A DNA stretch of 64,000 nucleotides, from positions 888,501 through 952,500 of the forward strand of contig NZ_CP061204.1 of NCBI RefSeq assembly GCF_014621775.1, in the 5' to 3' direction. Both the position numbers and the translations under genes were made by a program. Below the pieces are notes generated by a model, which saw only the letters and a program-made list of their open reading frames with translations, did not search any database and was not told the origin of the DNA. Origin of the DNA: Stenotrophomonas sp. 169. GTDB lineage: Bacteria; Pseudomonadota; Gammaproteobacteria; Xanthomonadales; Xanthomonadaceae. This document shows, in pieces, positions 5,435 to 57,040 of this stretch (positions are counted from its first letter, which is position 1; each line of letters opens with the position of its first letter).

Positions 5435-5663
5435 CGCCGAGCACGGCTCGGCGCTACCGCTTTTCATCTCCCTTCATACGCGGCAGGCAGCAACCGGGAA
5501 ACCGTCAGGGCGACGGGCGGGGTGGGTATGCGGGGCCTTGAGCGGCAGGAGCCGCGAAGAGCTACATGGACGTACTTGCGCGTGCCCCGCATACCCACCC
5601 CGCCCGTCGCCAACCGGTAGTCCAGCTTCAGGGCAGCCGCGAGGGGGTCTCACCCGTTCGACC
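5435..5663 (-). repeat. Composite structured repeat, copy C (long stem plus SMAG palindrome)
   Basis: Read on the minus strand: a GGTCGAACGGGTGAG head and CCCCCTCGCGG; then a long stem whose 28-nt arms are perfectly complementary (5584-5611 and 5509-5536). Inside the stem are the conserved segment AAGTACGTCCATGTAGC and a small hairpin GCGGC-TCCT-GCCGC (5542-5555). It ends with CTGAC, GCCGCGTA, an A-rich spacer and a SMAG-like palindrome (5435-5457). The same order recurs at 40216-40503 and 52669-52969, with different stem sequence but preserved pairing. Confidence 0.75.
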
Positions 5664-37065: not shown

Positions 37066-40000
37066 GTGCGCCGTTTCAATCTTTCCGAATGGGCCTTGGC
37101 CAACCGCCCGCTCGTGCTGTTCGCCATGCTGGCCTTCGCCCTGATCGGGGTGTGGTCCTACAAGCATCTGGGTCAGTCCGAAGATCCGCCCTTCACCTTC
37201 AAGGCGATGGTGGTGCGCACGCTGTGGCCCGGTGCCACGGCCGAGCAGGTGTCGCGGCAGGTGACCGAGCCGATCGAAAAAGCGCTGATGAACACCGGCG
37301 AGTTCGAGTTCATCCGCTCGTATTCGCGCCCCGGCGAATCGCAGGTGATCTTCATGGCCCGCGACGACCTGCGCTCCAAGCAGATTCCAGACCTGTGGTA
37401 CCAGGTACGCAAGCGCGTGGGCGACATCCAGGCCACGCTGCCACGGGAGATCGTCGGTCCGTTCTTCAATGATGAGTTCGGCGATACCTTCGGCAACATC
37501 TACGCACTGACGGGCCAAGGCTTCGATTACGCGGTGATGCGCGACTACGCCGACCGCATCCAGCTGGAGCTGCAGCGCGTGCCCGACGTGGGCAAGGTCG
37601 ACCTGGTTGGGCTGCAGGATGAAAAGGTCTGGATCGAACTGTCCAATGCCAAGCTGGCCACGCTGGGTGTGTCGATGCAGCAGGTGCAGCAGGCGCTGGC
37701 CGACCAGAACGCGATCACCGGCACCAGCTTCTTCGAAACCGCCACCGACCGCGTGCAGCTGCGGGTGAGCGGGCAGTTCGACAGCATCGAGGCGATACGC
37801 GCGTTCCCGATCCGTGCCGGTGAACGTACCGTGCGCCTGGGCGACCTCGCCGAGGTGAAGCGGGGCTTCGCCGATCCGGCATCGCCGAAGATGCGCTTCA
37901 TGGGTGCCGATGCGATCGGTCTGGCGGTGGCGATGAAGGACGGCGGTGACATCCTCGCCCTCGGTGCGCATCTGGATGCGGAGTTCGAACGACTGCAGAA
38001 GACCCTGCCGGCGGGCATGCAGCTGCGCAAGGTGTCCGACCAGCCCAAGGCAGTGGAAGAGTCGGTGGGTGAGTTCGTGCAGGTGCTGACCGAAGCAGTG
38101 GTGATCGTGCTGCTGGTCAGTTTCTTCTCGCTGGGCCTGCGCACCGGGCTGGTGGTGGGCGTGACCATTCCACTGGTGCTGGCGATGACCTTTTTCGTCA
38201 TGCATTACTTCGGCATCGGCCTGCACAAGATTTCGCTGGGTGCGCTGGTGCTGGCGCTCGGCCTGCTGGTGGACGATGCGATCATCGCGGTGGAGATGAT
38301 GGCCACCAAGATGGAGCAGGGCTACGATCGCCTGCGTGCGGCCAGCTTTGCGTGGGAGTCCACCGCCTTCCCGATGCTGACCGGGACGCTGATTACCGCG
38401 GCCGGCTTCCTGCCGATCGCGACGGCGGCCTCCAGCACCGGCGAGTACACCCGTTCGCTGTTCCAGGTGGTGACCATCGCGCTGGTGGTGTCGTGGATCG
38501 CAGCGGTGCTGTTCATTCCCTACCTCGGCGACAAGATGCTGCCGGACCTGTTCAACCGCCAGCCGCCGAAACCGGGCAGTTTCACCGCGCGCTGGCATGC
38601 ACGCCGGCAGGCGTGGGCGGACCGCTGGCCGGCCGTGTCGAACCTGGTCGCGCCGCCGCAGCACGGCCACGACCACGATCCCTACCAGCGGCCGTTCTAT
38701 GTGCGCTTCCGTGGCTTCCTCGACGCTTGCCTGCGCCACCGCTGGTGGGTCATCGCCGCCACCGCGCTGCTGTTCGTCGGCTCGCTGGTGCTGTTCCGCT
38801 TCGTGCCGCAGCAGTTCTTCCCGGATTCCACCCGGCCGGAGCTGATGGTGGACATCGAGCTGGCCGAAGGCGCGTCGTTGAACGCTACCCGCGACCAGGC
38901 CATCAAGCTGGAGAAACTGCTGGCGGGTCGCGAGGGCATCCGCAACTACGTGGCCTATGTCGGCACCGGTTCACCGCGCTTCTACCTGCCGCTGGACCAG
39001 CAACTGCCGGCCACCAACTTCGCCCAGTTCGTCGTGCTGGCCAACGACACCAACGCGCGCGAAAGCACCCGGGACTGGTTGATGGACGAGGTGATCCCGC
39101 AGTTCCCGGACGTGCAGATGCGGGTGACGCGGCTGGAGAACGGTCCGCCGGTCGGGTACCCGGTGCAGTTCCGTGTGTCGGGCGAACATGTGGCCCAGGT
39201 ACAAGCGCTGGCCCGTCAGGTCGAGGCAAAGGTGCGCGCCAATCCGCATACGATCAACGTCAACCTGGACTGGAGCGAGCCGAGCAAGGTGGTGCGGCTG
39301 GTGATCGATCAGGACCGCGCCCGCGCGTTGGGGGTGAACAGTGCGCAGGTCAGCCAGTTCTTGGCCAGTTCACTGGCCGGGCAGAGCGTGAGCGTGTACC
39401 GCGAGGGCAACCGGCAGATCGAAATGCTGGTACGCGGCCCGGCCGACGAGCGTGCCCATCTGGCGCTGCTGGCCAGCCTGTCGATGCCGACCGCCAGTGG
39501 TGGCAGCATCAGCCTGTCGCAGGTGGCCACGCTGGAGCAGGGTTTTGAGGACGGCATCATCTGGCACCGCGATCGCCTGCCGACCGTGACGGTGCGCGCC
39601 GACATCGGCGATGGCATGCAACCGCTGGACGTGGTGCAGCAGATCCTGCCGAGCCTGGATGACGTGCGCAGCGAGCTGCCCAGTGGGTATCTGCTGGAAA
39701 CCGGCGGTACGGTGGAAGATTCGGCACGCGGCCAGGACTCGATCAAGGCCGGCATGCCGTTGTTCCTGGTGGTGGTGGCGACGTTGCTGATGCTGCAGTT
39801 GCGGAGCTTTTCCCGCGCGGCGATGGTGCTGGTCACCGCACCGCTGGGCATCATCGGCGCGACGTTGTTCCTGCTGATCTTCCGGGTGCCGTTCGGGTTC
39901 GTCGCGCTGCTCGGCACGATCGCGCTGGCGGGCATGATCATGCGCAACTCGGTGATCCTGATCGACCAGATCCAGCAGGACATCGACGCTGGGCATGACC

Positions 40001-40230
40001 GCTGGGATGCGATCCTGGATGCGACGGTACGCCGTTTCCGGCCGATCGTATTGACCGCGCTGGCGGCGGTGCTGGCGATGATTCCGCTGTCACGCAGCGC
40101 GTTCTACGGATCGATGGCGATTTCGATCATGGGCGGGTTGATCGTCGGCACGGTGCTGACGCTGGTGTTCCTGCCGGCGTTGTACGCGGCGTGGTTCCGG
40201 GTGCGGAAGGAAGACGGTCGAACGGGCTGA
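37066..40230 (+). CDS. smeP: RND multidrug efflux transporter SmeP
   Basis: 1054-aa inner-membrane RND pump. First helix about 14-32 (PLVLFAMLAFALIGVW), two large periplasmic domains, and the helix-4 stretch ALVLALGLLVDDAIIAVEMM containing the proton-relay aspartates. Helices 5-6 follow (FPMLTGTLITAAGFLPIA), then the second half with ALLGTIALAGMIMRNSVILID. GTG start at 37066 with AAGGAG upstream. Together with smeO and tolC it forms the SmeOP-TolC pump, which in S. maltophilia contributes to multidrug resistance. The stop codon lies within the start of composite repeat A. Confidence 0.93.
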   Translation: MRRFNLSEWALANRPLVLFAMLAFALIGVWSYKHLGQSEDPPFTFKAMVVRTLWPGATAEQVSRQVTEPIEKALMNTGEFEFIRSYSRPGESQVIFMARDDLRSKQIPDLWYQVRKRVGDIQATLPREIVGPFFNDEFGDTFGNIYALTGQGFDYAVMRDYADRIQLELQRVPDVGKVDLVGLQDEKVWIELSNAKLATLGVSMQQVQQALADQNAITGTSFFETATDRVQLRVSGQFDSIEAIRAFPIRAGERTVRLGDLAEVKRGFADPASPKMRFMGADAIGLAVAMKDGGDILALGAHLDAEFERLQKTLPAGMQLRKVSDQPKAVEESVGEFVQVLTEAVVIVLLVSFFSLGLRTGLVVGVTIPLVLAMTFFVMHYFGIGLHKISLGALVLALGLLVDDAIIAVEMMATKMEQGYDRLRAASFAWESTAFPMLTGTLITAAGFLPIATAASSTGEYTRSLFQVVTIALVVSWIAAVLFIPYLGDKMLPDLFNRQPPKPGSFTARWHARRQAWADRWPAVSNLVAPPQHGHDHDPYQRPFYVRFRGFLDACLRHRWWVIAATALLFVGSLVLFRFVPQQFFPDSTRPELMVDIELAEGASLNATRDQAIKLEKLLAGREGIRNYVAYVGTGSPRFYLPLDQQLPATNFAQFVVLANDTNARESTRDWLMDEVIPQFPDVQMRVTRLENGPPVGYPVQFRVSGEHVAQVQALARQVEAKVRANPHTINVNLDWSEPSKVVRLVIDQDRARALGVNSAQVSQFLASSLAGQSVSVYREGNRQIEMLVRGPADERAHLALLASLSMPTASGGSISLSQVATLEQGFEDGIIWHRDRLPTVTVRADIGDGMQPLDVVQQILPSLDDVRSELPSGYLLETGGTVEDSARGQDSIKAGMPLFLVVVATLLMLQLRSFSRAAMVLVTAPLGIIGATLFLLIFRVPFGFVALLGTIALAGMIMRNSVILIDQIQQDIDAGHDRWDAILDATVRRFRPIVLTALAAVLAMIPLSRSAFYGSMAISIMGGLIVGTVLTLVFLPALYAAWFRVRKEDGRTG

Positions 40231-40503
40231 GCCCCCTCGCGGCTGGCTTTCGAGCTGGAGCCTCGGCTGGGCCGGGCGGTGAGGCTGGTCGGGGGACGCG
40301 CACAAGTACGTCCATGTAGCGCTCGTTTCGCGCCATCCATGGCGCTCAACGCCCCCGCCCAGCCCCACCGCCCGACCCCTGACAGGTTCCGTGGCCGCCC
40401 GCCGCGTAATAAAGAAAAAGAAAAAGCGGTAGCGCCGACCCATGGTCGGCGAGCGAAGCGGGCCGTTGGCGGGAATATTCCGCCGACCATGGGTCGGCGC
40501 TAC
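40216..40503 (+). repeat. Composite structured repeat, copy A
   Basis: Order: GGTCGAACGGGCTGAG, CCCCCTCGCGG, left stem arm (40269-40295), conserved AAGTACGTCCATGTAGC (40304-40320), apical hairpin GCGCCATCCATGGCGC (40330-40345), right arm (40352-40379), CTGACAGGTTCCG, GCCGCGTAA, an A-rich spacer, then a SMAG-like pair (40429-40503). The arms pair over about 27 bp with three mismatches. The smeP stop codon is within its first 15 bp. Confidence 0.75.
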
Positions 40504-40769
40504 CGCGGACCTCGTTGACCCGTCTGGTGGAGGGAGCCCCTGAGTCAGGGGCGGCCGCGAAGCGGCGGGGTGTGGGTGCTGGTGAGACGGGGCCCGCGGT
40601 TTGCGAAGCAAAGCGTGGGAGCGGCAGCGCGAATGCGATGACGTGGACCCGTGCCGCGAAGCGGCGGGGTGTGGGTGCTGATGAGACGGGGCCCATGGTT
40701 TGCGAAGCAAAGCGTGGGAGCGGCAGCGCGAATGCGATGACGTGGACCCCGGGCGCAGCCCGGCAACCC
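40231..40769. other. Convergent intergenic region smeP/leuB, wholly repeats
   Basis: 539 bp between convergent genes, without a coding gene. Left half: composite element A. Right half (40526-40749): GCCCCTGAGTCAGGGGC hairpin and two 94-bp units. It ends with a CCGGGC-GCA-GCCCGG hairpin (40749-40763) that borders the leuB stop codon and may terminate that operon. Confidence 0.7.
40557..40749 (+). repeat. Tandem pair of 94-bp units
   Basis: Unit 1 at 40557-40650 and unit 2 at 40656-40749, separated by GTGCC. Each starts GCGAAGCGGCGGGGTGTG and ends GATGACGTGGACCC, with TTTGCGAAGCAAA inside. They differ at about three positions. A third copy lies at 53022-53115. Confidence 0.85.
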
Positions 40770-52668: not shown

Positions 52669-52969
52669 GGTCGAACGGGTGAGACCCCCCTCGCGGTGGG
52701 CGCTGACAGCGGGCTGCTTGCTTGGGGCCGGGCGGTGAGGCTGGGCGGTGAGGCTGGGCGGGGTCCGGCAAAAGCCGCTCCTGCGTGCCTCGTTTCGCGC
52801 CATCCATGGCGCTCAACGCCCCCGCCCAGCCCCACCGCCCGGCCCCCTGACAGGTTCCGTGGCCGCCCGCCGCGTATGAAAAAAGAGAAAAGCGGTAGCG
52901 CTGACCCATGGTCGGCGAGCGCAGCGGGCCGTTGGCGGAAACATTCCGCCGAGCACGGCTCGGCGCTAC
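52669..52969 (+). repeat. Composite structured repeat, copy B
   Basis: Same order as copies A and C: GGTCGAACGGGTGAG, CCCCCTCGCGG, left stem arm (52724-52763, with an internal 13-bp duplication), hairpin GCGCCATCCATGGCGC (52797-52812), right arm (52819-52847), CTGACAGGTTCCG, GCCGCGTATG, A-rich spacer and a SMAG-like pair (52895-52969). The AAGTACGTCC core of A and C is replaced by a different sequence containing CGGCAAAAGCCG. Confidence 0.75.
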
Positions 52970-53021
52970 CGCGATGACGGTATACCGTCGGGTGGAGGGA
53001 GCCCCTGAGTCAGGGGCGGCC

Positions 53022-53115
53022 GCGAAGCGGCGGGGTGTGGGTGCTGGTGAGACGGGGCCCACGGTTTGCGAAGCAAAGCGTGGGAGCGGCAGCGCGAATG
53101 CGATGACGTGGACCC
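53022..53115 (+). repeat. Third copy of the 94-bp unit
   Basis: Matches the units at 40557-40650 and 40656-40749 nearly base for base and is preceded by the same GGTGGAGGGAGCCCCTGAG sequence, so the shared block is about 125 bp. Confidence 0.85.
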
Positions 53116-53211
53116 GCGCCATGGATGGCGCGAAACGAGGCACGCATGGATGCAGCTCTTGCCGTCCCCCGCCAATCCACCCCGCCCCACCAGCACGCAG
53201 CACTGCAGCCG

Positions 53212-54874: not shown

Positions 54875-55075
54875 GAAGGGGCTTCTCCGTTCAGGATATG
54901 AGGGAGCGAGCAGAAGCTTGCAGCGCATTGCCAGCGAAAAGCCAGCAATGCAGACGGATTGCCAGCGGTTGGAACCAGAGGGCAGGCGCAGGAACGCGCG
55001 GCCGCAGTGTACGTGCTGCATCGTCACGGCGCTGTCAGTGTCGTCGGCGACAACGCTTGTGTGCTGTAATGCGCG
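54875..55075. other. Divergent gap between BCCT gene and thiC leader
   Basis: About 200 bp with no gene; it must hold the promoters of the BCCT transporter (minus strand) and of the TPP riboswitch-thiC transcript (plus strand). No convincing hexamers were picked out. Confidence 0.4.

Positions 55076-57040
<1,965 letters not shown>

Follow-up and report, generated by a model that had tools for sequence, protein, structure and literature searches.

CsrA/RsmA is a global RNA regulator. The high-affinity Csr/Rsm site is described as ANGGAX placed directly on a stem (PMC4005645; for this and all other sources cited by PMC number, the statements are those of excerpts). Repeated GGA hairpin loops characterise the Csr/Rsm sponge RNAs, namely RsmX/Y/Z, CsrB/C and RsmU of Xanthomonas (PMC4333381, PMC7694677). 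The TwoAYGGAY RNA (RF01731), which is predicted to bind CsrA, has two hairpins with AYGGAY loops and a tandem G-A in one stem (PMC4333381). The YPAL elements of Yersinia are described as mobile, insertion producing target duplications of 3-26 bp, and are said to be expressed together with the genes upstream of them, perhaps with an effect on RNA stability (PMC2229807). Ysr224 is among the most prevalent annotated sRNAs (PMC9029176), and Yersinia ruckeri has several copies of it that differ in expression (PMC12112432).

The window analysed here is the whole stretch of 64,000 nucleotides from Stenotrophomonas sp. 169. It contains three repeats that are real and strongly structured and that form a new branch within a known type of element: they are MITE-like, non-coding and mobile, and share a family with Yersinia YPAL/RU-2 (Rfam Ysr224). 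A preliminary description of the window had recognised no named family, which is not supported, as the core is common to Rfam Ysr224 and Yersinia YPAL/RU-2.

Copies in the window and in the Stenotrophomonas sp. 169 genome

Three copies of a composite element with a shared order of blocks are present in the window, as had been described (Table 1); the nhmmer matches span 5449-5662 (-), 40217-40437 (+) and 52670-52903 (+). The stems and hairpins reported for them also exist, with letters swapped between the copies: the 28-pair stem and the apical hairpin GCGGC-TCCT-GCCGC, attributed to copy C, are those of the copy at 5435 (copy A), and the apical hairpin GCGCCA-TCCA-TGGCGC is common to the copies at 40216 (copy B) and 52669 (copy C). 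The change of stem among the copies is real; the window alone has two stem types, not three, because the copies at 40216 and 52669 are near-identical in the 3' arm and the apical hairpin. The 5' arm of copy C contains a partial tandem duplication, and a shorter AGGA loop takes the place of the hexaloop in P3 of copy A and P4 of copy C. Copies A, B and C fold better than shuffled sequence (z of -6.7, -6.5 and -6.2), and no shuffle folded as well (0/200, 0/200 and 0/100, respectively). The tail, already noted as SMAG-like, is the known SMAG/GTAG REP, a name taken from PMC3733652 and not from a family search.

Table 1 Coordinates of the three elements in the window and their parts
Feature	Position	Strand	Basis
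Copy A, full element, TCC strand (head, outer stem, long stem, inner hairpins, tail as far as SMAG REP)	5449..5663	-	nhmmer hmm 1-221; sequence
Copy A core, GGA strand	5510..5611	+	R1 80.1 bits; R2 72.8 bits at 5514-5606; fold
Copy A long-stem arms	~5509-5536 and ~5584-5611		
Copy A loops, GGA strand	P3 AGGA 5547-5550; P4 ATGGAC 5566-5571		
Copy B, full element, TCC strand	40216..40437	+	nhmmer; sequence
Copy B core, GGA strand	40268..40378	-	R1 116.2 bits; R2 72.6 bits at 40273-40374
Copy B loops, GGA strand	P3 ATGGAT 40335-40340; P4 ATGGAC 40310-40315		
SMAG/GTAG-type REP dimer after copy B	40429..40503	.	sequence; fold
Copy C, full element, TCC strand	52669..52903	+	nhmmer; sequence
Copy C core, GGA strand	52737..52845	-	R1 101.4 bits; R2 60.0 bits at 52742-52841
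Copy C loops, GGA strand	P3 ATGGAT 52802-52807; P4 AGGA 52779-52782		
Inverted partner of copy C, left half of second core	53082..53193	+	R1 39 bits; nhmmer hmm 54-145

The gene upstream of copy B (37066-40230) takes its stop codon from the head of the element, giving the protein end FRVRKEDGRTG*; bases 40216-40232 of the head encode the final residues of this transporter-like gene along with its stop. At the Rfam gathering threshold the sole match in the window was a TPP riboswitch at 55073-55174 (65.5 bits). MicroRNA models that appeared in a permissive Rfam scan of copy B were rejected as chance matches, since such models fit any long stem.

A blastn search with copy B gave 97 matches in the genome, and nhmmer with 27 seeds gave 111 matches, 40 of them full-length copies, in 39 genome blocks. 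Covariance model R1 gave 108 matches, or at least 87 distinct places after the removal of 21 antisense self-matches, a lower bound because 150 of 3561 candidates were scored; 82 of these places outscored the best antisense self-match. Sixty-six cores were extracted, of which 9 were broken by another repeat, and the 57 uninterrupted cores, chosen by sequence search, were aligned to a hand-written structure (alignment A1). Along the GGA strand a pyrimidine tract comes first, then (full copies only) an outer stem, then a short GGAA..CTGTC stretch; next are one arm of the long stem, the small hairpins P3 and P4, the other arm and the head. Many loci also have a second copy, inverted, within a few hundred bases.

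Many copies have a third repeat module behind them (GGAGGGAGCCCCTGAGTCAGGGGC..., bearing GCGAAGC mini-hairpins); its positions in the window are ~40528-40720 and ~52990-53110. It breaks the apical hairpin of the inverted partner of copy C and, across the genome, interrupts 9 of the 66 cores just inside the apical hairpin. Arrays of GTTGCT/GTTGCC hexamers stand beside the outer side of many elements (L112, L122, L130), and some copies lie directly behind an apparent intrinsic terminator (L022, L013, L032; ~1501-1730).

According to a home-made gene caller, convergent genes flank 24 of the 57 copies, genes in line flank 29 and divergent genes 3, and one copy lacks a gene on one side. The head side is near a gene end, often ~50 nt away, in 39/57 copies, and in the other 18/57 the head-side gene points away. 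By position, the TCC strand is downstream of the near gene (39/57 copies) no less often than the GGA strand is downstream of the far one (39/56), which counts against the GGA-strand reading.

Covariation, GGA loops and strand

Genome-wide collection of copies, a check called for in the preliminary description, revealed strong covariation that is not confined to the three copies, and its claim that the fold is conserved while the stems change was borne out. In A1, 95.0% of cells pair and 29 of 43 pairs are changed on both sides, with a covariation score of 0.281, compared with 0.104 for shuffled and at most 0.057 for slid alignments. Among 50 elements from other genomes (alignment A3; at most 82% alike, from 114 of 277 extracted), 34 of 38 pairs are doubly changed and the score is 0.883, compared with 0.195 shuffled and at most 0.144 slid, although pairing and loop invariance in A3 are partly by construction, since paired arms and two CANGGANG loops were conditions for inclusion. 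Helix 1 of A3 contains 28 G-U cells out of 1150. Such near-perfect stems suggest that DNA-level repair may help to maintain the arms. CsrA aside, the repeats offer a strong example from nature of a fold that survives near-total replacement of its stems.

The element consists of a long stem of free sequence carrying two small hairpins on top, with GGA loops that are mostly ANGGAY closed by C-G. GGA is present in both loop regions of all 57 own-genome copies; 39 have two C-ANGGAN-G hexaloops (CANGGANG) and 18 have one. A search of 140 loci from relatives, made without a loop rule, yielded 167 long inverted repeats, 2 of which are not family members. An orientation could be assigned to 165: 156 contain two CANGGANG loops, 8 contain one and a single repeat, from outside the family, contains none; the 140 loci had been found with R1, so these counts are partly dependent on the loops. 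The loops have the sequence of the high-affinity Csr/Rsm site, an ANGGAX hexaloop on a stem, and their degenerate position in relatives is the N of ANGGAX (T 216, G 66, A 22, C 16).

The strand read in the preliminary description is the TCC strand, and the GGA loops are on the opposite one. The GGA strand gives the better fold in 55 of 57 own-genome copies. On this strand the long stem has 46 G-U against 8 A-C cells (20 against 7 sites) in the own-genome set and 49 against 7 cells in relatives, the latter ratio being biased because the model used to select the loci favours G-U. The inner hairpins of the own-genome set show the opposite wobble trend (19 A-C against 6 G-U cells), with 11 of the A-C cells coming from one column pair. 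C-to-T changes exceed G-to-A changes in the 5' flank (37/636 and 13/562), and there is no such excess in the 3' flank (20/463 and 24/420). The inner-hairpin trend, the 5'-flank excess and the fact that Rfam models Ysr224, which takes its name from a Yersinia sRNA, on the TCC strand all argue against the GGA-strand reading. Taking these sequence features together, we infer that the GGA strand is probably the transcribed one.

Distribution and turnover in related genomes

Matches to R1 were found in 31 of 61 genomes: 28 of the 37 in the genus, Stenotrophomonas sp. 169 included, and 3 of the 24 outside it, all three from one family. A second model, R2, matched 51 of 276 sampled gammaproteobacterial genomes and 45 of 215 genera, with up to 15 candidates scored per genome. 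The core pattern occurs in at least 119 stretches, from Stenotrophomonas, Xanthomonas, Arenimonas, Marinobacter, Rheinheimera, Microbulbifer, Yersinia proxima, Sodalis and others.

The Stenotrophomonas sp. 169 genome has a CsrA gene, and CsrA (PF02599) is found in 242 of the 276 gammaproteobacterial genomes. It is present in 50/51 element-bearing genomes compared with 192/225 element-free ones (Fisher p 0.009, phylogeny ignored); the sole exception among the 51 is one genome (G234) that bears the element and gave no PF02599 match.

Comparison of the insertion sites revealed positions that are filled in one genome and empty in related ones, as for MITE-like elements. Site A is empty in 13 of 14 relatives and filled in one (G029). 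Site B is empty in 19 of 20 and filled in the same genome, where the contig ends inside an element with the same head; R1 itself matches in 0/20. The gene upstream of site B ends differently in other relatives. At site C, 9 of 15 relatives have the element, ~70-140 bases from the gene and in one orientation throughout, with stems that differ between species. The occupancy of the three sites shows that gains or losses are frequent, with some copies persisting.

The site-C element of one relative (G036, L210:1240-1425) has ~80 extra bases inside the first GGA loop, at the apex. In two relatives' loci the sX15 sRNA lies near elements (L053:1098-1255, L055:270-429).

Explanations and comparison with known systems

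On balance, we consider it somewhat probable that the repeats are MITE-like mobile elements that conserve, as their product, a double hairpin of the CsrA/RsmA type, with predicted binding of CsrA/RsmA. On the GGA strand, both tips match the best-bound hairpin loop, and the repeats may therefore be mobile CsrA/RsmA decoys. In a transcript of the GGA strand, the two loops would bind one CsrA/RsmA dimer, with the long stem presenting and protecting them; transcripts bearing the element could then titrate CsrA/RsmA or bring it to a neighbouring mRNA.

More tentatively, a class-wide superfamily of mobile repeats, now filed under unconnected names, may be a distributed CsrA/RsmA decoy that spreads while titrating the regulator. 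Stray transcription of dozens of intergenic copies per genome would titrate CsrA/RsmA, and since copies are often head to head, transcription from either side would yield one GGA-strand copy. If this is true, YPAL and the often-annotated Ysr224 gain a testable function and a tie to TwoAYGGAY-like RNA, and in many gammaproteobacteria a global regulator is tuned by how many copies of a mobile repeat are present.

The conserved object could instead be DNA, with a transposase (for example of the REP/RAYT HuH type) recognising single-stranded hairpins and their loops, and with the match to the CsrA site a coincidence. The multi-copy, intergenic, species-specific occurrence of the repeats and their fusion to SMAG/GTAG REPs fit this explanation, as does the description of YPAL as mobile with target duplications (PMC2229807). 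We regard it as rather unlikely, because the loop degeneracy falls exactly at the N of ANGGAX, the core is kept throughout the class despite the changing stems, and the long stem tolerates G-U but not A-C on the GGA strand, whereas DNA strands should be equal. Between RNA and cruciform DNA, both named in the preliminary description, the evidence leans towards RNA.

An ordinary 3' mRNA element (a stabiliser, terminator or RNase III site), in which the loops are incidental, has no need of fixed loop letters. This explanation agrees with the position of the head side near a gene end and with the suggestion that YPAL is co-expressed with upstream genes and perhaps has a role in RNA stability (PMC2229807), but the 18 copies whose head-side gene points away make it improbable. 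The near-perfect, sequence-unrelated stems with few G-U steps in other genomes could also reflect template switching or gene conversion between the arms (quasipalindrome correction) rather than RNA selection, but as a source of the covariation this is very improbable, leaving unexplained both the fixed loops between covarying small stems and the one-strand G-U excess; such correction and the CsrA/RsmA-hairpin reading are compatible.

R2 was built without Yersinia and without Stenotrophomonas sp. 169. It recovers copies A, B and C (Table 1) together with a Yersinia proxima locus (L239, 59.1 bits) that Rfam identifies as Ysr224 (RF02770, 94 bits), so that the repeats share the core and fold of the YPAL/RU-2/Ysr224 family. 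The Rfam Ysr224 model itself scored 13.7 bits on copy B and 34.8 bits on L063, below its gathering score of 70. The idea of a nameless Stenotrophomonas repeat was dropped in view of the class-wide core pattern, the Rfam Ysr224 locus and the printed RU-2 core. Membership of TwoAYGGAY was also rejected: the best score, at one locus (L063), was 32.7 bits against a threshold of 43, with no match in a stretch of L063, none at the gathering threshold and none in the permissive scan of copy B. In the literature searched, no paper joined CsrA with YPAL and none treated RsmA, Stenotrophomonas, sRNA and repetitive elements together. Joining YPAL, Ysr224 and TwoAYGGAY with the Xanthomonadaceae repeats and a conserved double ANGGAY loop appears to be new.

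The likeness to TwoAYGGAY extends to P3 in the own-genome copies, which also has a GA/GA internal loop. The Csr/Rsm sponges are the products of one or a few dedicated sRNA genes, whereas the present element is a dispersed repeat with two putative sites per copy. The tail, and a dimer beside most full copies, resemble GTAG REPs, but the long hairpin with its two inner hairpins is no part of a REP. Compared with YPAL/RU-2, the stem and flank sequences are unrelated, and the present repeats are joined to SMAG REPs and frequently occur as head-to-head pairs. Like YPAL/RU-2/Ysr224, they are multi-copy, intergenic and mobile, and the window copies have the two-hairpin core with GGA loops within a stem that is seen in RU-2 as printed in PMC2759123.
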